This document shows, piece after piece, positions 22,811 through 41,841 of a stretch of 64,000 nucleotides of DNA (position 1 is the stretch's first letter; each line of letters opens with the position of its first letter). The stretch spans positions 62,001 through 126,000 of the forward strand of contig QHXW01000152.1 in NCBI GenBank assembly GCA_003223115.1, written 5' to 3'. Source of the stretch: Acidobacteriota bacterium (GTDB lineage Bacteria > Acidobacteriota > Terriglobia > Bryobacterales > Bryobacteraceae). The translations under genes were made by a program, and so were the position numbers. Below the pieces are notes generated by a model, which ran no database searches, was not told the DNA's origin, and saw only the letters and a program-made list of their open reading frames with translations.

Positions 22811-22901
22811 TCAGGTGAGACTCCAGGCTGCATGACGCCACAAACTACATCATAGGAGATTTGGGACCGGACTCCTCCGGTCCAGCAATTCAACCAAGTT
22901 G

Positions 22902-23982
22902 ATGCCTGTCGAGACACTAAGCCGCGAGCAGGAACTGCACTGGATCGCGCTGAAGCTGGTCCCTGGACTGGGTACCAGAATCGCGTCCAAATTGATCGCA
23001 CAATTTCGTAGTCCCCAAGCGATTTTCCGGAGTTCGCGAAGTGAATTGCAAGCGGCGGGTATCAGCGGCGCCCTGGCCCAGAGTATAACCAGCGGTTGCA
23101 CGTTCGAGGACGCCGTGGTGCAGCAGGAAAAAATGCTCGAGATCGTCACTCTCAGCGATCCGCGCGATCCGCCGCTGCTCAAGGAAATTTTCGATCCGCC
23201 GATTTTCATCTTCGCGCGCGGGCGCATCGATCTGCGGCAGTCGACCATGTTCGTGGTCGGCACCAGGCGGCCGACACCTTACGGCCTGGCGGCAACCGAA
23301 CGTCTGTCTGGAGATCTGGCGCGCGCGGGACTCACCATTGCGAGTGGAATGGCGGGGGATCGACACCGCGGCACACAAGGCGGCTCTCGCTGCGGAGGGG
23401 GAAACCGTCGCTGTTTTCAGCTGCGGCGTCGATGTCATCTATCCCTCGGACAACCGCGCACTCGCCGCGGAGCTGGCTTCCAAAGGGCTGATCATTTCCG
23501 AGTTCACCATGGGCTCCGCCGCATTTCCGCAGAATTTTCCCATACGTAATCACCTCATCAGCGGCATGAGCGCGGGCTTGCTCGTGGTGGAAGGGGCGCA
23601 GTACAGCGTTTCGGCAATCACCGCAAAGCTGGCGCTCGACCAGGGCCGTGAAGTATTCGCGATACTCTGCAACTTCACTTCCAAGATGAGTTGGGGTCGA
23701 AGTGGGGCGAAAGCCCATTCAAGACGGCAGAAACCGCCTGCTGCATCAAGGACTTAACCCGGATGCAACCGAGGGCGACGCTCAAGCATCGTTATTGGAT
23801 AGCCAGAGCGAAATCACTCGCAAGCTCCTCGAGAAGCTGAGTCCGGATTGAGGAATTCATGTGGATGCGCTCGTCGAGACCCTGGAAGATTTTTCTCCTT
23901 CCGAATTAATTGCAGCTCTGAACTTGAAATGAACGGTTTGGTAAAACAGCTTCCAGGGAAGAACTCTGTTAAAGTGTGGTAG
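22902..23982 (+). pseudogene. dprA: dprA (DNA processing protein A), multiply disrupted
   Basis: DprA loads RecA on incoming single-stranded DNA during natural transformation. The N-terminal SAM-like region and first half of the Rossmann fold (MFVVGTRRPTPYG, LTIASGMA) are in one frame. A shift near 23350 moves to RGIDTAAHKAAL and FSCGVDVIYPSDN. The invariant P-G-N of this family is replaced by L-C-N (AILCNFTSKMSWG). About 30 residues then seem deleted near 23695. The winged-helix part (SEITRKLLEKL) hits an in-frame TGA at 23849, and a last shift near 23925 leads to EMNGLVKQLPGK. Substitution, stop and indels together indicate a true pseudogene. The dprA-topA order is a common bacterial arrangement. 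Confidence 0.9.
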
Positions 23983-24097: not shown

Positions 24098-26575
24098 ATG
24101 GCAAAGGCTCTCGTAATCGTAGAATCGCCGGCAAAGGCGAAAACTATCAATAAGTATCTGGGAAAACAGTACCTGGTGAAAGCCTCGCTCGGCCATATCA
24201 AAGATCTTCCGAAGAAGGATCTGGCTGTCGATGTGGAGCACGGCTTCGAACCCACTTATGTCGTCATTGAGGGCAAGAAGAAGCTCATCAGCGAGCTCAA
24301 GCAGGCTGCCAAGAAAGTGGAATCGGTGTATCTGGCGGCTGACCCTGACCGTGAAGGCGAGGCCATCTGCTGTCACCTCCAGGAAGAACTGAGTGGCGAC
24401 CACCCTAAGAACGGAAAGGGGGGCAAGCAGTCTAAAAAATCCGGACCCGAGTTTTTCAGGGTGATGTTTAACGAAATCACCGCCCGCGGAATCAAGAAAG
24501 CCTTCGAGGAACCGGGGCAGGTGGATTTGCACCGCGTTGAAGCGCAGCAGGCCAGACGCGTTCTCGACCGGCTGGTGGGATACAAGATTTCGCCGCTGCT
24601 GTGGGACAAAGTGCGCCGGGGATTGTCCGCGGGCCGGGTGCAAACGGTCGCCCTTCGGGTGGTGGTTGAGCGCGAGCGCGAAATCCGCGCGTTCCAAAAA
24701 CAGGAATATTGGACCATCGATGTCCACCTGGGCGCCAAGAAACCGCCAGCTTTTGATGCGCGGCTGATCAAGCGGGCCGTGGATGGCGGCGAGATGCAGG
24801 CCGCTGAGATCACCAACCAGCAGGCCGCGGACGCGTTAGTTGCGACGCTCACGGGCGCCAGCTACACTGTCAAATCGGTTGTAACCAAGGAGAAGAAGCG
24901 CAATCCGGTCGCGCCTTTTATCACCTCGACATTGCAGCAGGAAGCAGCCCGCAAACTGCGCTTCAGCGTCAAACGCACCATGATGCTGGCGCAGCGCTTG
25001 TATGAAGGCGTTGAACTGGGCAAAGAGGGTGCGGTGGGCCTGATCACCTACATGCGCACGGATTCCACGCGCGTGGCGAGCGAGGCCATCGACGATGTGC
25101 GCAAGTTCATCGGCGATAAATGGGGCGCCAATTATCTACCGCAAGCGCCGAATGTTTACAAGTCGAAAAAAGAAGCGCAGGATGCGCACGAAGCGGTTAG
25201 GCCCACTTCGGTGATGCACACGCCCGAAGAAATCGAGCGGCACCTTTCTGACGATGAGCTCAAGCTGTACACGCTCATCTGGAAGCGCTTCGTTGCGTCG
25301 CAAATGCCGCCGGCGCTGTTCGATCAGACCACCATCGACATTTCCTCCAAAGGGAACGACGGCACCGATTACTTGTTCCGGGCAACCGGTTCGGTGCCGA
25401 AATTCGACGGGTACCTGGTCGTCTACGAGGAAGGCAAGGATCAGAAAGACGAAGAAGACGAGGAACTGCGTCATAAACTGCCGCAGGTCGATCAAGGCGA
25501 GGCGCTGAAGTTCCGCGGTATCAAACCTGAACAACATTTCACTGAGCCGCCGCCTCGTTTTACCGAGGCCACGCTGGTGAAAAAGCTGGAATCGGACGGT
25601 GTGGGCCGGCCCTCCACCTATGCCTCCATCCTCTCCACCATTCAGGAGCGCGAATACGTCCAGAAAGAAGGCGGCAAGTTCAAGCCCACCGAGCTAGGCA
25701 TGGTGGTCAGCGATCTGCTGCTCGAGAATTTCAGCGACATCTTCGAAGTGAAATACACCGCGCGTATGGAGGAGGAGCTGGACGAAATCGAAGAAGGCAA
25801 GCTTGATTGGCGCGATGCCATGTCGGAGTTCTACGGGCGTTTTGAGAAAGACCTCAAGCGCGCCGAAGAGCACATGACGGATATCAAGCGCATGGAGAAG
25901 CCCACCGACCTCATTTGCGAGAAGTGCGGCAAGCCGCTGGTCATTAAGTGGGGTAAGCACGGAAGCTTTATCGCCTGCACCGGTTATCCGGAGTGTACCT
26001 ACACTCGCGAGCTCACCGTGGATCTGCCGGACGTCGATAAGGCAGACCTCACCGAGCAGGGCGATCAGGAATACTGCGAGAACTGCGGCCGGCCCATGGT
26101 GCTGAAGAAGGGCCGCTTCGGACAATTTTTCGCCTGCACCGGTCATCCGGATTGCAAGACCACCCGCCCCATTGGAGGGGTCCAACGAAAGTCCGACGTG
26201 CCGCTGGATGAAAAGTGCACGCAATGCGGCAGCAATCTGGTGGTGAAGTTCGGCCGTTATGGCGAGTTCACCGCCTGCAGTAATTACCCGACCTGCAAGT
26301 ACGTCAAGCAGAAGACCGTGGGAGTGAAGTGTCCGGAGTGTTCGGAAGGCGAAGTTGTCGAGCGGCGCTCCAAGCGCGGCAAGACTTTTTACGGCTGCAG
26401 CCGCTACCCTGATTGCACTTTCGTCGCCTGGGGCAAGCCGGTACCGGAAAAATGCCCCGAGTGCGGCAATCCTTATCTGGTGGAAAAATGGCTGAAGGCC
26501 GGCGCCGTGCTGAGCTGCCCTAAGTCGGAATGCAGCTACAAGAAAACAGTTGAGCCCGAACTCGTGAGCCATTGA
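24098..26575 (+). CDS. topA: DNA topoisomerase I
   Basis: An 825-residue type IA topoisomerase that relaxes negative supercoils. The Toprim domain opens LVIVESPAKAKTINKYLG and contains DPDREGEA with the metal aspartates. The catalytic tyrosine is in GLITYMRTDSTR, about residue 318. The C-terminus holds several four-Cys zinc ribbons, for example EKCGKPLVIKWGKHGSFIAC and CPECSEGEVVERRS. Length and domain order are normal. The stop overlaps the ATG of the downstream MFS gene by one base. Confidence 0.95.
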   Translation: MAKALVIVESPAKAKTINKYLGKQYLVKASLGHIKDLPKKDLAVDVEHGFEPTYVVIEGKKKLISELKQAAKKVESVYLAADPDREGEAICCHLQEELSGDHPKNGKGGKQSKKSGPEFFRVMFNEITARGIKKAFEEPGQVDLHRVEAQQARRVLDRLVGYKISPLLWDKVRRGLSAGRVQTVALRVVVEREREIRAFQKQEYWTIDVHLGAKKPPAFDARLIKRAVDGGEMQAAEITNQQAADALVATLTGASYTVKSVVTKEKKRNPVAPFITSTLQQEAARKLRFSVKRTMMLAQRLYEGVELGKEGAVGLITYMRTDSTRVASEAIDDVRKFIGDKWGANYLPQAPNVYKSKKEAQDAHEAVRPTSVMHTPEEIERHLSDDELKLYTLIWKRFVASQMPPALFDQTTIDISSKGNDGTDYLFRATGSVPKFDGYLVVYEEGKDQKDEEDEELRHKLPQVDQGEALKFRGIKPEQHFTEPPPRFTEATLVKKLESDGVGRPSTYASILSTIQEREYVQKEGGKFKPTELGMVVSDLLLENFSDIFEVKYTARMEEELDEIEEGKLDWRDAMSEFYGRFEKDLKRAEEHMTDIKRMEKPTDLICEKCGKPLVIKWGKHGSFIACTGYPECTYTRELTVDLPDVDKADLTEQGDQEYCENCGRPMVLKKGRFGQFFACTGHPDCKTTRPIGGVQRKSDVPLDEKCTQCGSNLVVKFGRYGEFTACSNYPTCKYVKQKTVGVKCPECSEGEVVERRSKRGKTFYGCSRYPDCTFVAWGKPVPEKCPECGNPYLVEKWLKAGAVLSCPKSECSYKKTVEPELVSH

Positions 26576-27915
26576 TGGACCTCAGGGGCCGGGAACCGCG
26601 CACCGCGGCTCATCGTCCCCCCGTTTCCGGCCCCCGGCGCCGCACTGTCTCGAACCTGCGCTGGTGGATCGGCAGCCTGCTGTTTGCCTCTACCGTCGTC
26701 AACTACATCGATCGCCAGACACTCAGCGTGCTGGCCCCCTACCTAAAAGCCGAACATCACTGGACTAACAGCGACTTCGCGCTGATCGTTATTTCTTTCC
26801 GGCTTTCGTACGCCATCGTGCAGTTCGTGGGCGGACGCCTGGTCGATGTACTGGGCACGCGGCGCGGTCTGAGTCTGGCTGTGGCGTGGTACTCGGTCAT
26901 GGCGATGCTGACGTCGCTCGCGCGCGGCCTGTGGAGCTTCTGCGCGTTCCGTTTCCTGCTGGGAGCGGGTGAAGCGGCAAACTGGCCCGGCGCCACCAAG
27001 GCCGTGGCGGAATGGTTTCCCGCCAAAGAACGCGGCATCGCAGTGGCACTGTTCGACAGCGGTTCCGCCATCGGAGGAGCCCTTGCGCCCTCATTAGTCG
27101 TATGGCTCTACCACGCGTTCGGAACCTGGCGGCCGGCCTTTCTGATCACGGGCACGCTCGGGTTTCTCTGGCTGCTCGCCTGGTTGGCGACTTACCACAA
27201 GCCCGAGGAACATCCCCGGATCAGCGATTCTGAGCTCGCCATGATTCTCGCCACGCGATCCGGCGCCGATCAGGAGTCGCCGCCCGCGCGCACGCCCGTC
27301 TCGACCCTGGTGCGGTACCGCCAGACATGGGGCGTGGTGCTCGTCAAGGCCATTCTCGATCCGTATTGGTATATGGTTGCGGATTGGTTTGCCCTTTTCC
27401 TCGTCAGCCGAGGGTTCAAGCTGGAGGACACGCTCGTCGGCTTCTGGGTTCCGTTCGTGTGCGCCGATCTCGGGAATTTTGTGGGCGGCGGCTTGTCCAG
27501 CTATTTCATTCACCGCGGCTGGACCGTGGGTGCAGCTCGCAGAAGCATCTTCGTAATCTGCGGGCCGCTGATGCTGCTCATGATTCCGGCGGTTTACACC
27601 ACGCGCCTCTGGCTGCTGATCGCCGAATTCGGGCTCGCGACGCTGGGCTATGCCGCCTGCGCCACGATTTTTCTGACGCTGCCGTCGGATCTATTCGAGA
27701 GCGGATCGGTAGCCACGGTTAGCGGTCTCGCCGGCATGGTCACTGGCTTTGTCACCATCGCGGCAACCTATACCATTGGGGCGGTGACCGACCGGTACTC
27801 GTTTGCTCCCATCCTACTGGGCGCGAGCGCCGCTCCGGTGCTGGCGATCATCGTTGTGACGCTTCTGGTGAAGAACACCCGGAATTCGGGGAAAGGCGTG
27901 CTGCTGCGGATCTGA
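26575..27915 (+). CDS. MFS transporter, hexuronate/galactonate (ACS) type
   Basis: A 446-residue major facilitator protein with about 12 hydrophobic helices. The first helix carries VNYIDRQTLSVLAPYLK, a signature of the anion:cation symporter subfamily that imports hexuronates, galactonate or related organic anions (ExuT/DgoT/GudP). The interhelix segment GRLVDVLGTRRGLSLA is the MFS 2-3 loop. The frame could begin at TTG 26572, but ATG 26575 is preferred because it overlaps the topA stop (TGATG). The substrate is inferred from subfamily only; a sugar acid would fit the IlvD/Edd and DapA-type genes elsewhere in the window. Confidence 0.8.
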   Translation: MDLRGREPRTAAHRPPVSGPRRRTVSNLRWWIGSLLFASTVVNYIDRQTLSVLAPYLKAEHHWTNSDFALIVISFRLSYAIVQFVGGRLVDVLGTRRGLSLAVAWYSVMAMLTSLARGLWSFCAFRFLLGAGEAANWPGATKAVAEWFPAKERGIAVALFDSGSAIGGALAPSLVVWLYHAFGTWRPAFLITGTLGFLWLLAWLATYHKPEEHPRISDSELAMILATRSGADQESPPARTPVSTLVRYRQTWGVVLVKAILDPYWYMVADWFALFLVSRGFKLEDTLVGFWVPFVCADLGNFVGGGLSSYFIHRGWTVGAARRSIFVICGPLMLLMIPAVYTTRLWLLIAEFGLATLGYAACATIFLTLPSDLFESGSVATVSGLAGMVTGFVTIAATYTIGAVTDRYSFAPILLGASAAPVLAIIVVTLLVKNTRNSGKGVLLRI

Positions 27916-30042: not shown

Positions 30043-31770
30043 ATGGAAAACAAAGAGATTGCGCGCGTGCTCTGGGAGACCGCCGATCTGATGGAGATCG
30101 CGGGCGAGGACTCCTTTCGAATCCGCAGTTATCGCAACAGCGCGACATCCATCGAAGGTTACCCCGAACGCATCATCGACATTCTCAAGGATGAGAACCG
30201 CAAGGTCACCGAAATTCCCGGCATCGGCAAACGGCTGGCATCGGTGCTGCAGGAGATTGTGGACCGAGGTTCTTGCGAGCGGCGCGACGAGCTGCTGAAA
30301 AAATTTCCGCCCACGGCACTCGAATTTCTCAAGATCCAGGGCTTGGGGCCCAAAGGCATTGCGCTCATCTTCGAGCATCACCAGATCACGACCATGGACG
30401 AATTGGAGCAACTCTGCAAGGACGAGAAGCTTCGGTTGCTGCCGCGCATGGGCGCCAAGCTCGAAGAGAAAGTGTTGCGCTCAATTGCCCAGTACAAAAT
30501 GCGCACGGGCCGGTTCCTGTTGAGTTTTGCGCACGAGGCGGCCGAGGAATTGAAGAAATATCTGGCCGAAACGGGCGGTGTAGAGGAAATTACCGCCGCT
30601 GGGAGCCTGCGGCGCGGTAAGGAAACCGTGGGCGACCTCGACCTGCTTGTCACGGGGCCGAATGCCACGGAAGTGCTCGAACGTTTTGTGGCTTATCCGC
30701 GCGTGCACGAAATCCTGGGGCGTGGGGCCAACAAAGCTAGCGCCAAAGTGGGCCGCGAGGGTTTGCAGGTGGACGTGCGGGCGCTGCCGCGGGAGAGTTA
30801 CGGCGCCGCAATGCAATATTTCACGGGCAGTAAAGAACACAACGTGGCAGTGCGCACGCGGGCGGTGAAGATGGGTTTCAAGCTCAGCGAATACGGCCTG
30901 TTCCGCGCCGACAACGACACGCGGGTGGCGGGCGAAAGCGAGCAGGAAGTGTACGACGCCCTGGGATTGGCCTGGATTCCTCCCGAGCTGCGCGAAAACA
31001 GCGGTGAAATCGAGGCTGCCGGGGAAGGCCGTCTGCCGGAGCTGATCGAACTGAAGCACATCCGCGGCGACATCCACATGCACACTACCGAAACCGACGG
31101 TCGGGCGTCTTTGGAAGAGATGGCCGAAGCGGCAAAAAACCTAGGCTACGAATATGTCGCCATTACGGACCACTCGAAAGCCATCGCCATGGCCAACGGC
31201 CTGGATGAGACCCGCGCTGTGGCGTTCGCCCGGCAGGTTCGCGAGTTGAACCGGCAAGATCGGGGTATCCGTATTTTCTCCGGCCTCGAGTGCGACATCC
31301 TGAAGGATGGCGCGTTGGACCTGGCGAACGACGCCCTGGCGGAACTGGACCTAGTGATCGGCAGCGTGCACAGCCACATGAACCTGGAACCGGCGGAGAT
31401 GACGGACCGTCTCCTGCGCGCGCTCGAGTGCCCTTCTTTGCGGGTGTTGGGGCATCCCACCGGACGTCTGCTCATGCAGCGCGAGCCGTTCTCATTCGAT
31501 TTCGATCGTGTGGTGATGGAGGCCGTCAAGCGCGGCGTCCATTTTGAAATCAACGCCAGTCCAGAGCGGCTGGACCTGAACGGAAACCTGGTGCGGAGCG
31601 CTAAACAGCGCGGCGCGAAGTTTACAGTCTCCACCGACGCGCATCACCCCAAACATCTGCACAATATGTGGTACGGTGTGGTCACGGCCCGGCGCGGCTG
31701 GCTGGGTCCGGCTGATGTATTGAATACACTGCCCGCGGAGCGGTTTCGAAACGCCATTCGTCACAACTGA
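30043..31770 (+). CDS. Family X DNA polymerase with PHP domain (PolX)
   Basis: A 575-residue PolX starting at ATG 30043. Helix-hairpin-helix segments ([17 protein letters not shown] and [18 protein letters not shown]) bind DNA. The polymerase palm has [17 protein letters not shown] with the metal D-x-D. From about residue 335 a PHP phosphoesterase domain begins with [20 protein letters not shown] and ends with [10 protein letters not shown]; it supplies 3'-5' exonuclease or AP-endonuclease activity. The enzyme fills short gaps in base-excision repair. Length and domain order are normal for bacterial PolX. Confidence 0.9.
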
Positions 31771-31776
31771 TTCAAT

Positions 31777-33141
31777 ATGAGATATCTGATTACGATCCTG
31801 ATTTTATTTTGCGCGGTGCTTCAAGCCGCGCAGCCGGTGATCCCCATTGAGAAGTTTTCTCTCAAGAACGGCCTGCGCGTAGTAATGTCGCGCGACAACG
31901 CCGTGCCGGTGGTCACCGTCTACCTGATGTTCGACGTGGGCTCGCGCGCCGAGGAAAAAGGACGCACGGGCTTCGCCCACCTGTTCGAGCACATGATGTT
32001 CGAGGGCTCGACCAACGCGCCTAAGGGAACCCATTTTAAGCTGGTGCAGGCCAACGGCGGCACGCTCAACGGTTCGACGCACCCCGACTACACTAATTAC
32101 TTTGAAGTGCTCCCCTCCAACAAGCTGGCCGTCGCTCTGTGGCTGGAAAGCGATCGTATGCGCAGCCTGGCGATCACGGCGGAGAACCTGGCCAACCAGA
32201 AAGAGGCCGTCAAGCAGGAGCGTCGCTTGAGCTTCGATAACCGGCCCTACTCGACTGCGATTGTGGACGTTTGGCCTCAACTGGCATTTGAGAACTGGCA
32301 GAGCTCGCACTCGCTCATTGGATCGTTCGAAGATTTGAACGCCGCTACGCTCAAGGATGTCGAGAGCTTTTTCAAGACGTACTACGCGCCGAATAACGCA
32401 GTGCTAGTGATTGTAGGCGACATCAAGGTTCCCGAAGCCAAGAAGCTGGTCGAAACGTACTTCGGCGACATCCCCTCGCAACGCAAGCCGAAACCTGCGG
32501 ACCTTACTGAGCCCGAGCAGCCCAAGCCGCGCAGCCAGGTCTACCACGACCAGCACGCACGCGTTCCTGGAGTGGTGATCGGCTACCGAGGTCCCCTCCG
32601 ACATTCGCCGGATTACTATGCCATCGGCATGCTTGATGTGCTGCTGACCGGCGGCCCGAGCTCGCGTTTCCAGTTGGACCTGGTGAAAGGCAAGCAGAGC
32701 GTGATTCAGTATCAGGCGGAGCTGGGGTGGCCCTTTGCTTCGATCAGTGATTACAAAAATCCGGGCGATTACGCCATGTTCCTGCTGTATAAACCGAACT
32801 TCACGTCCAAGCAAATCGTGGACCAGGCGCAGGAAGAGATCGCCAAAATCCAAAACGACGGCGTGGATATCATGGAACTAGAGCGCGCGCGGACGCTGCT
32901 GCGATCGGAACGGATTACCTCGCTGCAAAGCTCGTTCCAGCGCGCATCGCTCCTGGCGGGGTACGAGGTGCTGGACGGCAATCCCGAATACGTCAACACG
33001 GAACTGGAACGGTTCCTGACGGTGACCTCGGAGCAGATTCAGGCGGCGGCGAAGAAATATCTAACGCCCGAGCGGCGGTCGGTTCTCGATATCCTACCCG
33101 GGCCCGCGCCGCAGGCGCCTTCGCCCAAGGAGAGCAAGTAA
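31777..33141 (+). CDS. M16 zinc peptidase, catalytic subunit, exported
   Basis: A 454-residue pitrilysin-family (M16) metallopeptidase. A signal peptide (MRYLITILILFCAVLQAAQ) is followed by the inverted zinc motif HLFEH (H68, E71, H72) in GRTGFAHLFEHMMFEGS. Its stop shares a base with the start of the next M16 gene (TAATG). That partner lacks the zinc motif, so the two probably form the usual heterodimer with one active and one substrate-binding half. Likely periplasmic; substrates would be short unfolded peptides. Confidence 0.9.
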   Translation: MRYLITILILFCAVLQAAQPVIPIEKFSLKNGLRVVMSRDNAVPVVTVYLMFDVGSRAEEKGRTGFAHLFEHMMFEGSTNAPKGTHFKLVQANGGTLNGSTHPDYTNYFEVLPSNKLAVALWLESDRMRSLAITAENLANQKEAVKQERRLSFDNRPYSTAIVDVWPQLAFENWQSSHSLIGSFEDLNAATLKDVESFFKTYYAPNNAVLVIVGDIKVPEAKKLVETYFGDIPSQRKPKPADLTEPEQPKPRSQVYHDQHARVPGVVIGYRGPLRHSPDYYAIGMLDVLLTGGPSSRFQLDLVKGKQSVIQYQAELGWPFASISDYKNPGDYAMFLLYKPNFTSKQIVDQAQEEIAKIQNDGVDIMELERARTLLRSERITSLQSSFQRASLLAGYEVLDGNPEYVNTELERFLTVTSEQIQAAAKKYLTPERRSVLDILPGPAPQAPSPKESK

Positions 33142-34538
33142 TGTTGAAGAAAGGCCTGGTATTTCTTTTCGCAGGTTTAATCACGATGGCACAAACGATC
33201 GATCGCACCAAGCCGCCTGAAACTCCGCCGATTCCCAGCTACAAGATGCCGCCGGCGCACGAGACCAAGCTCGACAACGGTTTGCGCGTGGTGCTGGTCG
33301 AAGATCCTCGCTTTCCTCTGGTGACTGCGCGGCTCAGCTTTCAGGCTGGTTCTAAATTTGACCCGAAGGACCTGCCCGGCCTATCCGAAACAACCGCGGC
33401 CCTGCTCACCCAGGGAACCAAGACGCGCTCGTTCCGCGAAATCGCCGAAGAGCTGGCCACCATCGGCGCCAGCCTGAATGGCAACTCATCCCCGGACGTC
33501 CTCACAATTGCGGGCAGCGTGCTCGCCGAGAACACGCCGAAGTTCCTGGACCTGCTGGCCGACGTCGCACTGAACCCGAGCTTCCCGGAAGACGAAGTAC
33601 AACTGCGCAAACAAAATCGCAAGCAAGCCTTGCTGGCGCAGCGCTCGCAATCTTCATTTCTGGCGCGCGAAAAATTCGACGAAGTGGTGTTCGGAGATCA
33701 CCCCTATTCCCACCTCGGGCCTTCGATGGAAGCGATTGACCGAATGGATCAGGCGGCAATCAGAAATTTTCGGGATGTCCATGTGATTCCCAATCATGCT
33801 GTGCTGATCCTGCTGGGCAGATTGCCGACTCGGCCGGAGATATTGAAGATGGTGAGTGACCGCTTTGGTTCCTGGCAACAGAAACCCGTTCCGCAACCGC
33901 CCGCCGCACGTTTTCCGGAGAGCAAGCGGCAACTGGTATTGGTTGACCGGCCCGGTTCCGTGCAGGCGGATATTCACATCGGCCGCCTGTCAGCGACACG
34001 TACTGATCCCGGTTATTATCCGCTGCTGGTGGGCAACGCCATTTTGGGCGGGGGCGCCAACTCACGGTTGTTTAATGATGTTCGCGAAAAACGCGGATTC
34101 GCTTACGACGCCCACAGCGAACTCGATCGCCGTAAGGATACGGGTGTAGCTGCCGCCGTGACGCAGGTTCGCAACGAGGTTGTGGAACCGGCGCTCGAAG
34201 CCGTGTTTTCAAATCTGGTTGAGATGGGAAAAACGCCCGTTACCGCGGTCGAGCTGAGCGATGCCAAAAACTATATCAGCGGCGTGTTCGTGATGAGCCT
34301 GGAAACCCAGGCCGGCGTGGCCGACCAGATAGATCTGGTGAAGACCATGGGGTTGCCCAACGACTATCTGGAGGCGTTCACACAGCACGTGCGCTCGGTG
34401 GAACCGGACCAGATCCAGGCAGCGGTGAAGAAATATTTTGCGCCGGATCAGGCGACCATCGTAGTGGTCGGTGATGCGTCCAAAATCCAAAAACCGCTCG
34501 AGAAGTTCGGGAGTGTGACGGTCGAAAAAGCCAAGTGA
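33141..34538 (+). CDS. M16 peptidase-like, non-catalytic subunit, exported
   Basis: A 465-residue M16 paralogue with an N-terminal signal segment (MLKKGLVFLFAGLITMAQ). The position of the zinc motif reads LPGLSETTAALLTQGT (about residues 78-93), with no H-x-x-E-H, so it cannot bind the catalytic zinc. The C-terminal half keeps the Arg/Tyr region (GGGANSRLFNDVREKRGFAY) that in active pairs completes the substrate site. Overlaps the active subunit gene by one base and the Nudix gene by one base. Confidence 0.9.
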   Translation: MLKKGLVFLFAGLITMAQTIDRTKPPETPPIPSYKMPPAHETKLDNGLRVVLVEDPRFPLVTARLSFQAGSKFDPKDLPGLSETTAALLTQGTKTRSFREIAEELATIGASLNGNSSPDVLTIAGSVLAENTPKFLDLLADVALNPSFPEDEVQLRKQNRKQALLAQRSQSSFLAREKFDEVVFGDHPYSHLGPSMEAIDRMDQAAIRNFRDVHVIPNHAVLILLGRLPTRPEILKMVSDRFGSWQQKPVPQPPAARFPESKRQLVLVDRPGSVQADIHIGRLSATRTDPGYYPLLVGNAILGGGANSRLFNDVREKRGFAYDAHSELDRRKDTGVAAAVTQVRNEVVEPALEAVFSNLVEMGKTPVTAVELSDAKNYISGVFVMSLETQAGVADQIDLVKTMGLPNDYLEAFTQHVRSVEPDQIQAAVKKYFAPDQATIVVVGDASKIQKPLEKFGSVTVEKAK

Positions 34539-35059
34539 TGAAGATCGTCTCGTCGCGGGTGCGCTACTGCTCGAAGCTGTTCACCGTTACTGAGGACCAC
34601 GCCAAGGACGCACGCGGCTTCGAGATCAAGCGTTCCATCGTGCGTCACGCCGGATCCGCGGTGATGCTGGCGGCCGATGAGCGCAAGCAGATTCTCCTGG
34701 TGCGCCAATACCGGCTGGCCGTCGACGGAAATCTGTGGGAACTGCCCGCTGGGCGTCTCGATCCCGGCGAAAATCCATTGCAGGCAGCCAAGCGCGAACT
34801 GGTGGAAGAGACCGGCTATCGTGCGCGACGTTGGAAGAAGTTGATTTCTTTTTATCCCAGCCCGGGCTACGTTTCCGAGAAGATGACGATTTTTCTTGCC
34901 ACGGACCTGACCGCGGGCGAAGCGCAACCCATGGACGATGAGCAGATCGAGTGCCGCTGGTTTCGGACGAAGGAAATTGAAGGAATGATCCGCGCCAATC
35001 GGATCCGCGACTCGAAAACCATCATCGGATATTTTGTCTGGCGGAGATGGTTCATGTAG
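34538..35059 (+). CDS. Nudix hydrolase, ADP-ribose pyrophosphatase-like
   Basis: A 173-residue Nudix protein. The Nudix box G-x5-E-x7-R-E-x2-E-E is intact as GRLDPGENPLQAAKRELVEE, and the N-terminal domain-swap region and FYPSPGYVSEKM string resemble ADP-ribose pyrophosphatases. It would split ADP-ribose to AMP and ribose-5-phosphate; other nucleoside diphosphate sugars are possible. ATG 34538 shares a base with the previous stop. Confidence 0.8.
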   Translation: MKIVSSRVRYCSKLFTVTEDHAKDARGFEIKRSIVRHAGSAVMLAADERKQILLVRQYRLAVDGNLWELPAGRLDPGENPLQAAKRELVEETGYRARRWKKLISFYPSPGYVSEKMTIFLATDLTAGEAQPMDDEQIECRWFRTKEIEGMIRANRIRDSKTIIGYFVWRRWFM

Positions 35060-35136: not shown

Positions 35137-35260
35137 GTTTCGCTCCGCTTCTTCTCCGGTCTTTGTATCCTGCCTCCCGTCTTCTGGTCTGTGACTTCCG
35201 TCAAGCCGTTTAATTCCAACATCGGTTGTCTTCCCAAAACTGCGCGGGAAGCCGGTAGTC

Positions 35261-35370
35261 GGCTGCGGTCGAAGTCACAGGCTGTTCAATCCGGCTCCGC
35301 CGGAGGCATGGCTGCGGCTGCGGTCGAAGTCACAGGGTATTCAATCCGGCACCGCCGGAGGCATGGCTGT
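35261..35370. repeat. 55-bp tandem repeat, two copies
   Basis: Two direct copies, 35261-35315 and 35316-35370, differ at a few positions. Each begins GGCTGCGGTCGAAGTCACAG and includes a small inverted stretch around CCGGCTCCGCCGG. They lie in the 391-base gap (35060-35450) between the Nudix gene and the comEC remnant. Apart from the repeats listed here, nothing gene-like is seen in that gap. Confidence 0.8.
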
Positions 35371-35405
35371 CTTCTGTCTCCTGCCTCCTGCCTCCCTACT
35401 CTCCT

Positions 35406-35435
35406 GTGCTGCCACGTGCTGCCACGTGCTGCCAC
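35406..35435. repeat. 10-bp tandem repeat, three copies
   Basis: GTGCTGCCAC occurs three times in a row at 35406-35435, just upstream of the remaining comEC coding sequence. This is a perfect short tandem array and probably arose by slippage. Confidence 0.75.
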
Positions 35436-35450
35436 CGGCTTAGTCACACC

Positions 35451-37942
35451 TTGCGCCATCCGCTCCTCGCGCCTCTGGCTGCCATCGCCACCGGGATTCT
35501 GCTTTCGCGACTGGTACGGTTTGACACTCGACGAGCTGGCCCACGGCGTACGTCATTCTGGCTCTCATCGCACTCTGGCGTCATGCGCGCCGGCTTGCGG
35601 CTGCGTGCTCTCTGATTGCGCTGTTGGCAGCAGGCGTAATGGTCGCCGTGATACGCCATCCAGGGCGCACGACCGAACTCGAGGCTGATGGACCCATGAT
35701 TATTTCCGGCTGCGTGGTCGAGCCGTCCGCAATCTCCGCCGATCGCGATCAGTTCACTCTGGAATTGGAACCGGGCGCGCGTATGCATGTGAGCCTGTTT
35801 GTCCGCGAAGGCGAGCTGCCGCCGGTTCTGCGTTACGGTCAACGAGTTGAATTCGACGCGCGGGTACGCCGCTCGCACAACTTCAATAACCCAGCCGCTT
35901 TCGATTACGTGCATTATCTATCTTATCTAGCGCGGCAAAACATTGATTGGACGGCGTCCGGCCGCCATTCGCAACCTGCCGGGCGGTTGCGGCTCACCAT
36001 TCCTGGGCGCGATTTACCGGCTCCGCACCGCTGCGCTCTCGAGGCTCGAATCTCTCTACGCTGGTAATCCTTACGACATTGGAATGATGCAGGCAGTGCA
36101 GATCGGCGAATCGTCCAAGCTCGACAAAGTGTGGAGAGAGGAGTGCCGCTCTACGGGCACCTTCCACGCGCTGGTGATTTCGGGCGCCCACGTGGCGGTA
36201 CTCGCCGGTTTTTTCTTCTTTCTGCTGCGCTTGTGTTTCGTCCCGAAAGGTCCCGCGCTGTTTCTGACCGTGCTCGGGAGCTGGCTGTATGCGCTGGCGA
36301 CGGGATGGCAGGCGCCGGTGGTGCGCTCGGCCGTCGGCTTCACGCTGTTTACGATCGGACGATTTTTATCGCGAGGCCCGCTTGATGAACCTGTTGGCCG
36401 CGGTGGCGATTGGATTTCTGGTGCTGGATCCGGAACAGCTGCTCGATGCGAGCTTCCAGCTTTCATTTCTGGCTGTCGCATTCATCGGAGCCTTCGCCGT
36501 TCCTCTGATCGAGCGGACGTCCGGCCTACGGGCCGCTGATCTCGGCGATCCGAATCGTGACCTGCACCTCGCTGCCGGATTGGCGCAGTTTCGGATCGAA
36601 ATACGGCTCCTGGCCGAAACCATGTAATTGTGGACGCGGTGGCCCGGAAAGCTCTGCGCCTTCCCGGTGAGCTATGCCGTGCGTGCCGGCCTCTATTTCT
36701 ACGAACTCATCCTGACTTCGGCCATGATTCAGATCGGTCTGGCGCTGCCCATGGCCATGTACTTCATCGCGTGTCGTTCTCGGAATTGTCCGCCAATGCG
36801 ATCATTGTGCCACTACGGGACTTGTGGTGCCGGTGGGATTTATAGCCGTGTTCACCAACAGCCTGCCCGAGCGGCAGGCAGGGTGGCTGCTGGGGCTTTC
36901 GCAATCCGCTGCGGCATGGCACGCACACTGGGAGCCCAATTGGCGCGTGCCTGATCCGCCGGTGTGGCTGGCTATCGGAATCTCAGCCGCGTTGGTCGCG
37001 ACGGCCCTACTGGGCAGGCTTTCGGGACGGAAACTGTGGCACGTGCCGCGCGTCATTGCAATCTCCTCGCTCGCGGCGCTGCTGGTGCTGATGGTATGGC
37101 ACCCATTCCCGCCCGATGTATCACACGGCACCCTCGAGATGACCGCGATTGATGTGGGCCAGGGACAGTATTTTTCTGGCGCTGCCTGATGGCAAGCTAA
37201 TGTTTATGGATGGCGGCTGCATTGCGTCATTGGGCGGCCGTCGCACAAAAACCAGGCTGGACATCGGCGAGGACGTGGTCTCGCCGTACCCGTGCAGCCG
37301 TTCCATCCGCTCCCTGGACGTGGTGCCCCTCTCGCATGCGCATGAGGACCATATCGGAGGTCTGGCCGCGATCCTTGGAAACTTTCACGTCAAACAGCTA
37401 TGGACCGGCGCGACGCCGGAGAGTCCGGAGTGGGAGCGGTTGCGGCAAAGGGCCGTGGAGTGCGGGGCCGGAATTGTCCCGCTTGCCGAAGAAAACCAGC
37501 TCCAGTATGGCGGCGCGGCTTTTGAAACCTTGGCACCGGCGCTCGACTACATTCCGGATTCAATTCAATGCCGCGCAATAACGACTCGCTGGTGTTGAGA
37601 GTGTCATTCGGAGAGTGTTCTTTGATTCTGAGCGGAGATATGGAGCGGCAAATCGAATCGGAGCTCGTGGGGCGAAACCGTGTGGCAGACGGGCTCAAAG
37701 TGGCACACCACGGCAGCAAGACTTCGACCACTGCCCCATTTCTGGATGCGGTGCACCCTGCGTTTGCCGTAATCTCGGCCGGTTTTGAGAATCTCTACGG
37801 CCACCCGCATCGGGACATTATCGAGAGGCTCAACGAAAGAAAAATCGGAATCCTGCAGACTGACCAGATAGGCCTGATTACCATCCGGACCGACGGCCAT
37901 AGGTTGGTGGTCGAGACGCGCGGAGTTGCTCCCGCTCCCTGA
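35451..37942 (+). pseudogene. comEC: comEC/rec2 DNA-uptake channel, seven frameshifts and one stop
   Basis: ComEC is the inner-membrane channel that passes single-stranded DNA during transformation. The sequence spells it piecewise: N-terminal helices HPLLAPLAAIATGILLSR, the OB-like region, the competence domain (FHALVISGAHVAVLAGFFFF, WLYALATGWQAPVVRSAVG, LLDASFQLSFLAVAFIG), and the C-terminal metallo-beta-lactamase part (AIDVGQG, DGG, SHAHEDHIGG, KVAHHGSKTS). Frame changes fall near 35530, 35995, 36375, 36765, 36815, 37165 and 37570. An in-frame TAA at 36625 sits between LLAETM and LWTRWPGK, a substitution-type lesion. Flanking genes are intact. The true start is unclear; TTG 35451 is a guess. 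Confidence 0.9.
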
Positions 37943-37992
37943 CGATCGGGAGTCTGGCGTGGGGTTGCCGCGGGTTGCCGTTCCCAGCCGGG

Positions 37993-41276: not shown

Positions 41277-41841
41277 TCACGCCGCCGCGCCCGGTGATCG
41301 TGTGTAAGCCTCCCGGAACCGGGCTTTGGCCCTGAAGATCAGTACGCGCAGATAATCCTGGTCCCCAAAAAATTCAAACACAACTCGGCCGGCTCACGCT
41401 CATCCAGGAAAATAGCTCGCAACAATCTGCGGTCGCGATTAGCCAGCTCGGAAAGCACCTTCCGCACCAGAAGTTTGCGCTGTTCGTTGACGAGCGGCGC
41501 GTCCAGCTCCTGGCTGATGTCGAACGGCTCGCACTCTTCAACGTCCGCGGATTCGTAGCGGCGCTCATTGCGCCTGAGCTCAATGGCCACATAATGGCAG
41601 ACGCCGCTGACGAAGGCGCCGAACTTGCGGGGTTTTCAATGCTGTCTTTTTCTCGAACGGCTCGCAATACGCGGCAAAGGGTCTCCTGCCGAATATCCTC
41701 CAGCAACTGCTGGGAATAAACGCGCCGGCGCAATTTTAAATAGATTAATTCGCCGAAATAAGCCGCGAAATGCCTCTCGACTTCTGGGTTCCCTTCGCGC
41801 AATAACTGCAGATATTCGCGGTCAAACGCTCGAAAATCCAA
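41277..41841 (-). pseudogene. ECF-type sigma-70 factor, two frameshifts
   Basis: The N-terminal region 2 (FDREYLQLLREGNPEVERHF, then LLEDIRQETLCRVLRAVR) is in one frame. A one-base loss in a C run near 41625 shifts to KFGAFV ... VAIELRRNERRYESADVEE and RRLLRAIFLDEREP. A second change in the CCCCAAAAAA run near 41370 is needed to recover DQDYLRVLIFRAKARFREA, the expected end of region 4, with a stop at 41277-41279. Both lesions are in homopolymers, so sequencing or assembly error is a real alternative to true decay. No anti-sigma factor gene is adjacent. Confidence 0.75.

Follow-up and report, generated by a model that had tools for sequence, protein, structure and literature searches.

In the cases accessible in the literature searched, broken transformation genes have mostly been described from pathogens. 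In Acinetobacter baumannii, mobile elements hit comM repeatedly, and transformation declines when the gene is lost; inactivated genes other than comM rarely explained transformation rates (PMC11472951). In Piscirickettsia salmonis, comEC was interrupted in all genomes inspected by the authors and transformation is presumed to be lost (PMC12955456). Mobile elements residing in comM, comFA, comK, comYC and comEC have been interpreted as weapons of intragenomic conflict (PMC4774983), and prophage sr1WO of Wolbachia integrates into a magnesium chelatase gene by means of a serine-type recombinase (PMC9203015). The strongest signs of recombination in grassland soil went along with comEC loci that have recombination genes next to them (PMC7305173). 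The loss of transformation and the presence of mobile elements in comM are already known in other bacteria; an earlier report of such a loss of transformation genes in Acidobacteriota was not found in the open-licence literature searched.

The window described here is a stretch of 64,000 nucleotides (bases 62001-126000 of the 145.8-kb contig C37) from the genome of an uncultured acidobacterium (G000; 9.14 Mb in 594 contigs, 97.5% complete). It contains a comEC pseudogene and a dprA pseudogene, and comM is broken elsewhere in the same genome. Judging from the sequences of these genes, it is highly probable that natural transformation has been lost in this organism, with comEC, dprA and comM nonfunctional, the constraint on them having ended at about the same time and a mobile element possibly having started the loss. 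As in P. salmonis, comEC is broken and transformation presumably lost; in contrast to that species, in which transposable elements are reported to cause the breaks and dprA and comM to be intact (PMC12955456), the lesions of G000 are small frame changes and extend to dprA and comM. G000 thus appears to show the loss caught part-way and in three genes at once, and the triple, apparently evenly aged decay together with the repeated use of a single comM site within the family seems worth following.

The comEC and dprA pseudogenes

The comEC pseudogene is located at 35451..37942 on the plus strand; the DUF4131 part, the Competence membrane domain and the C-terminal MBL domain of its product are distributed among several frames. 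The first-pass annotation had described it as a pseudogene with seven frame changes and a nonsense codon, and both its coordinates and its counts proved to be right. The ComEC proteins of two members of the same genus, G002 (835 aa) and G001 (837 aa), are each encoded by one open frame, and a frame-aware alignment of the window region 35380-37960 with either of them gave seven frame changes and one stop over the same span (35451-37927). Identical residues amounted to 566 of 835 for G002 (68%) and 542 of 837 for G001 (65%), and the list of lesions against G002 was the same at four frame-shift penalties. The frame changes were mapped approximately to 35539-35542, 35966-35978, 36363, 36764, 36817, 37163 and 37567. 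The in-frame TAA, which had been reported at 36625, was recovered at 36625..36627 of the plus strand, at residue 399 of the G002 protein. The frame change at 36363 adjoins a run of five T residues. The one at 37163 is a two-base loss at a place where neither congener has a homopolymer, in agreement with the loss outside a homopolymer that had been proposed near 37165.

Single comEC frames matched the Pfam families DUF4131, Competence and Lactamase_B, the last of them with a score below the cut-off. The pieces of the Competence and C-terminal MBL domains lie in different frames, so that they can indeed be read only by hopping frames, and a further break near 37567 divides the MBL domain. With the membrane domain broken up over several frames and the MBL domain divided, very probably no part of the comEC product would be able to act as a channel, which supports the earlier view that the damage is incompatible with a working DNA channel. 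The comEC gene is very probably a real pseudogene.

A second comEC was not detected in G000, where a search at E 0.001 gave only two pieces, both in the window (36102-36374 and 36364-36537). A survey of 61 genomes, G000 and 60 relatives, revealed a comEC match in 45 of them (the classes were counted by hand). In 41 of the 45, the match was a frame of 823 aa or more, two were cut at contig edges and one was partial (538 aa); comEC in two frames was found solely in the window's own genome. A 198-aa comEC fragment found no relatives among the named genomes of a sequence collection, and scanning the collection with the ComEC of G002 yielded a single locus, G002's own contig. Scanning the region upstream of comEC for promoters and terminators gave no hits. 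Just upstream of the gene, at 35260-35435, there are two direct copies of a 55-base sequence (94%), followed by 7-base and 10-base tandem repeats.

The view of comEC as a broken gene was thus borne out, but the first-pass annotation missed the broken dprA in the same window and the broken comM elsewhere. The dprA pseudogene (22815..23979, plus strand), which sits 11.5 kb upstream of comEC, has frame changes near 23352, 23719 and 23889-23922, a TGA at 23849-23851 and an internal deletion of about 20 residues. It was aligned with the G002 protein and four other DprA proteins (L048, L049, L050 and L051). The frame change at 23352 was found against all five references. The second was placed at 23717-23719 by four of the five and at 23740 by L048. 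The TGA and the frame change at 23889-23922 were each obtained with four of the five, L049 being the exception in both cases; its alignment stops short of the TGA. Left out of the tally were changes seen in single alignments: those with G002 and L049 had them in the poorly conserved start region, the one with L051 at 23782 and the one with L050 at the extreme end. According to a DprA family search of the 61 genomes, the sole dprA copy of G000 is the one in two frames on the same contig as comEC, with no second copy at the thresholds used.

The comM gene and its serine recombinase

The comM, comF and comEA genes were tested together, on the expectation that loss of the pathway breaks other transformation genes. 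Whereas comM is a single frame of more than 500 residues in both congeners, pieces of it were found on two contigs of G000, C523 and C306. They carry six distinct frame changes (C523: 1498, 1982, 2109 and 2141; C306: 241 and 510), a further one at C306:54 being the counterpart of C523:2141. Of the four changes on C523, those at 2109 and 2141 dropped out of the calls at the strictest penalty, at which C306:54 was retained. No second comM copy was detected in G000 at the thresholds used; comEC, dprA and comM are all broken, and for none of them did the searches reveal a spare copy.

The comM match on C523 stops at about position 2243, within the codons for MNPCLCG, and the convergent frame of a 509-residue serine recombinase ends at C523:2218, at the comM cut. 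The recombinase contains Resolvase, Recombinase and Zn-ribbon domains and belongs to PHROG integrase family 95; no second match to it was found in the G000 genome. An integrase gene is thus seen at the junction of the comM cut. The two ends of the mobile element do not lie in one contig, as the comM halves are on C523 and C306. Just before the cut, these contigs share 128 bases at 98%, and the comM lesion at residue 323 is present in both copies of this repeat. A tRNA-Leu (CAA) gene also lies on contig C523 (L064, 1-4453), between a phage-integrase frame and the cut comM with the serine recombinase; the contig possibly harbours two landing sites of mobile elements within about 2 kb.

Four relatives, G003, G010, G011 and G035, likewise have their comM match interrupted at this stretch (profile positions 343-365). 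The comM halves are 37 kb apart in G010 and 43 kb apart in G035, in each case on one contig; they are on different contigs in G003, and the second half was not found in G011. In G010, which belongs to another genus of the same family, the comM remnant stops just after MNPCPHG, and about 40 bases separate it from the end of a recombinase that shares 31% identity with the one of G000 (L187, 1495-4180). The G000 recombinase was not found in G003, G011, G013 and G037, and G035 gave a weak match distant from the comM cut; the cuts outside G000 and G010, if they are insertions, therefore use other recombinases. The genes comEC and dprA each match in one open frame in G003, G010 and G035. In G031, where comEC is open, the comM match consists of two parts (profile 3-256 and 261-499) separated by about 15 bases (C54:53937-55408), possibly another early comM lesion.

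The use of comM as a target of mobile elements is shared with A. baumannii, although the elements described there are Tn7-like AbaR islands and others, within one species (PMC11472951). Another study describes several species in which mobile elements interrupt comM at orthologous positions; the species named there for comM are, however, not acidobacteria, and the lead integrase is CF65_00446 (PMC4774983). The phage sr1WO, in turn, belongs to an endosymbiont and integrates by a recombinase of the serine type (PMC9203015). We presume that the magnesium chelatase gene which it hits is a comM/yifB homologue, in which case its target and type of enzyme would resemble those in G000.

Lesion densities, selection and alternative explanations

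Several genes next to the pseudogenes served as controls. The DNA topoisomerase gene next to dprA (24098..26572; 84% identical to G002), the MFS transporter gene (26566..27912; 86%), the DNA polymerase beta thumb/PHP gene (30043..31767; 85%) and the two M16 peptidase genes upstream of comEC (31777..34538; 79% and 77%), all on the plus strand, are open in comparison with G002. The NUDIX hydrolase gene directly upstream of comEC (34535..35059, plus strand) reads as an open frame in the window sequence itself. The control sample comprised 0.84 Mb of G000 (9% of 9.14 Mb) compared with 1.47 Mb of G002, and lesions within 10-95% of gene length were taken as interior. The 87 other genes had 12 interior lesions in 35,437 codons (106 kb), i.e. 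0.11 per kb, and at least one such lesion was present in six of them. The trio of comEC, dprA and comM carried 18 lesions in 5.3 kb, i.e. 3.4 per kb with all lesions counted, as against interior lesions only for the other genes; applying the interior rule to the trio left 7, 4 and 4 lesions (15 in total), or about 2.8 per kb, with comM counted on one contig only. The idea that a corrected assembly might restore an open comEC frame, already raised in the first-pass annotation, thus meets the fact that the lesion density per kb of other G000 genes, including the neighbours of comEC, is 25 to 30 times lower. Within the trio, the densities of 3.19 (comEC), 3.21 (dprA) and 3.95 per kb (comM) were homogeneous (chi-square 0.18, P 0.91).

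As the trio entered the sample on purpose, the quantity tested was the chance of three named genes all being broken. This chance was 7e-4 for any lesion (6 of 87) and 3e-5 for three or more lesions. When comF was added as a fourth, open gene, the chance of three or more of four was about 0.003 (by hand). Nine of the 99 rows had been dropped as out-of-frame ORFs, in which third codon positions changed less than 1.4 times faster than first ones, and seven of these nine bore "lesions"; if they are retained, 13 of the 96 rows outside the trio are lesioned and the chance of three out of three is about 0.004 (by hand). The first crude control, in which lesions near gene ends were included, gave 17 of 49 lesioned G000 rows, as against 16 of 60 when the comparison was reversed. 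A control with more of G002 and interior lesions only gave 16 of 99 and, in reverse, 4 of 117.

Branch-specific residue changes were more frequent in G000 than in the two congeners for both comM (44 vs 21 and 22, P 7e-4) and comEC (102 vs 61 and 83, P 0.005), where both tests assume equal branch lengths. The codon positions of comM indicated relaxed constraint (P 0.01). In comEC, such relaxation was hardly visible: changes at the three codon positions numbered 78/72/164 in G000 and 66/37/143 and 73/62/127 in the congeners, with P 0.43 against both congeners and 0.014 to 0.84 over single comparisons. Only 2 of 48 invariant ComEC residues were changed in G000, within the range of 0 to 5 found in open relatives (n = 29). 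The decay of comEC would therefore be recent or the signal of relaxed selection small. Because the codon positions of comEC are near-normal and so few invariant residues have changed, the loss is probably younger than the split of G000 from its congeners.

According to the explanation we prefer, the products of comEC (the DNA channel), dprA (protection of the incoming single strand and recruitment of RecA) and comM (the helicase for strand integration) would no longer work and the cell would not be transformable. Selection on the three genes would have ceased at about the same time, and frame changes and stops would since have accumulated at an equal rate in all of them; the constraint seems to have ended together since the lesion densities agree. 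The pathway, and not comEC alone, appears to be lost because dprA and comM are broken too. Sequencing or assembly errors in a genome of 594 contigs, the true gene being open, might instead account for the frame changes, and the lesion at the T5 run and the nearly normal signal of purifying selection in comEC would fit such an origin. The errors would, however, need to cluster on comEC, dprA and comM at 3.4 per kb (about 2.8 under the interior rule) against 0.11 in 87 genes and to spare neighbouring genes on the same contig; moreover, two bases were lost at 37163, outside any homopolymer, and comM is additionally cut beside a recombinase gene. We therefore consider this origin very unlikely. 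It is slightly harder still to believe that comEC alone was lost by drift and that dprA and comM were damaged independently of it, by the background decay of a large, pseudogene-rich genome. Six of the 87 other genes do carry at least one lesion, the short gene at 41283-41841 is broken too, and G000 has 9.1 Mb compared with 6.8 and 7.0 Mb in the congeners, but the low chance of three broken genes out of three and the similar lesion densities among them speak against it. As some pieces keep start codons and Pfam matches, continued use of the fragments is also conceivable, for example with the MBL domain made on its own or with the frames joined by programmed frameshifting. The MBL domain is nevertheless split, seven recodings and one stop read-through would be needed, and none of the other genomes among the 45 with a match has a two-frame comEC, which makes such use extremely improbable.

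The loss of the whole pathway, which we prefer to these alternatives, can be refined by asking what began it. The trigger may have been the mobile element that carries the large serine recombinase and lies in comM at the conserved motif, an order of events which we infer: the insertion would have cut transformation efficiency, and decay of comEC and dprA would have followed. The recombinase gene which ends at the comM cut in G000 and the related one beside the same motif in G010 are in line with this sequence of events, and a cut comM can come first because G003, G010 and G035 keep comEC and dprA open. On the other hand, the lesion at residue 323, present in both copies of the 128-base repeat, is possibly older than the insertion, the insertion is not closed as the comM halves of G000 are on separate contigs, and the detailed examination concerns one decayed lineage. 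We therefore propose the element as the trigger only tentatively.

Transformation and pilus genes in G000 and its relatives

In genus g37 of a sister family in the same order, none of the 11 genomes (G038, G040-G043, G045, G046, G051, G052, G055 and G056) has a match to comEC (PF03772, E 0.001) or comM (TIGR00368, E 1e-10). A DprA-family match, weaker than is usual elsewhere, was found in 10 of the 11 and was absent in G041. The relatives may thus show both an earlier state, in which only comM is cut, and a later one without a comEC or comM match. A family-wide course of events might be drawn from this, in which elements with large serine recombinases would repeatedly enter comM at the MNPCxxG codons, weaken transformation and sometimes start a stepwise and irreversible loss of dprA and comEC, with G003, G010 and G035, then G000, then g37 as successive stages; we regard this generalization as rather doubtful. 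The same relatives form a natural series in which to ask whether mobile elements drive bacteria from the transformable state. In surveys of soil genomes, an open frame rather than a domain match should count as presence of comEC, since pieces of the comEC and dprA pseudogenes still exceed the Pfam cut-offs.

The comF gene is open in G000 (281 residues); its score does not reach the family cut-off, which holds for each of the 37 genomes searched. ComEA (TIGR00426) had no match in any of the three members of the genus, while 27 of the 37 searched genomes have one. Its absence was rejected as a sign of loss in G000, being common to all three, and because of this missing match the competence of the genus is itself unproven. 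A PilT-family gene, scoring above the cut-off, is open in G000, as is a second, related motor gene, which we take to be probably PilB-type. The secretin-like genes are open too and all score below the PilQ cut-off. Pilus motors and secretin-like proteins have roles outside transformation; the survival of their genes is therefore no argument for competence. On the minus strand of the window, at 41283-41841, lies a homologue, with two frame changes, of a 191-residue G002 protein; the G002 protein has no Pfam match and presumably resembles an ECF-type sigma factor.
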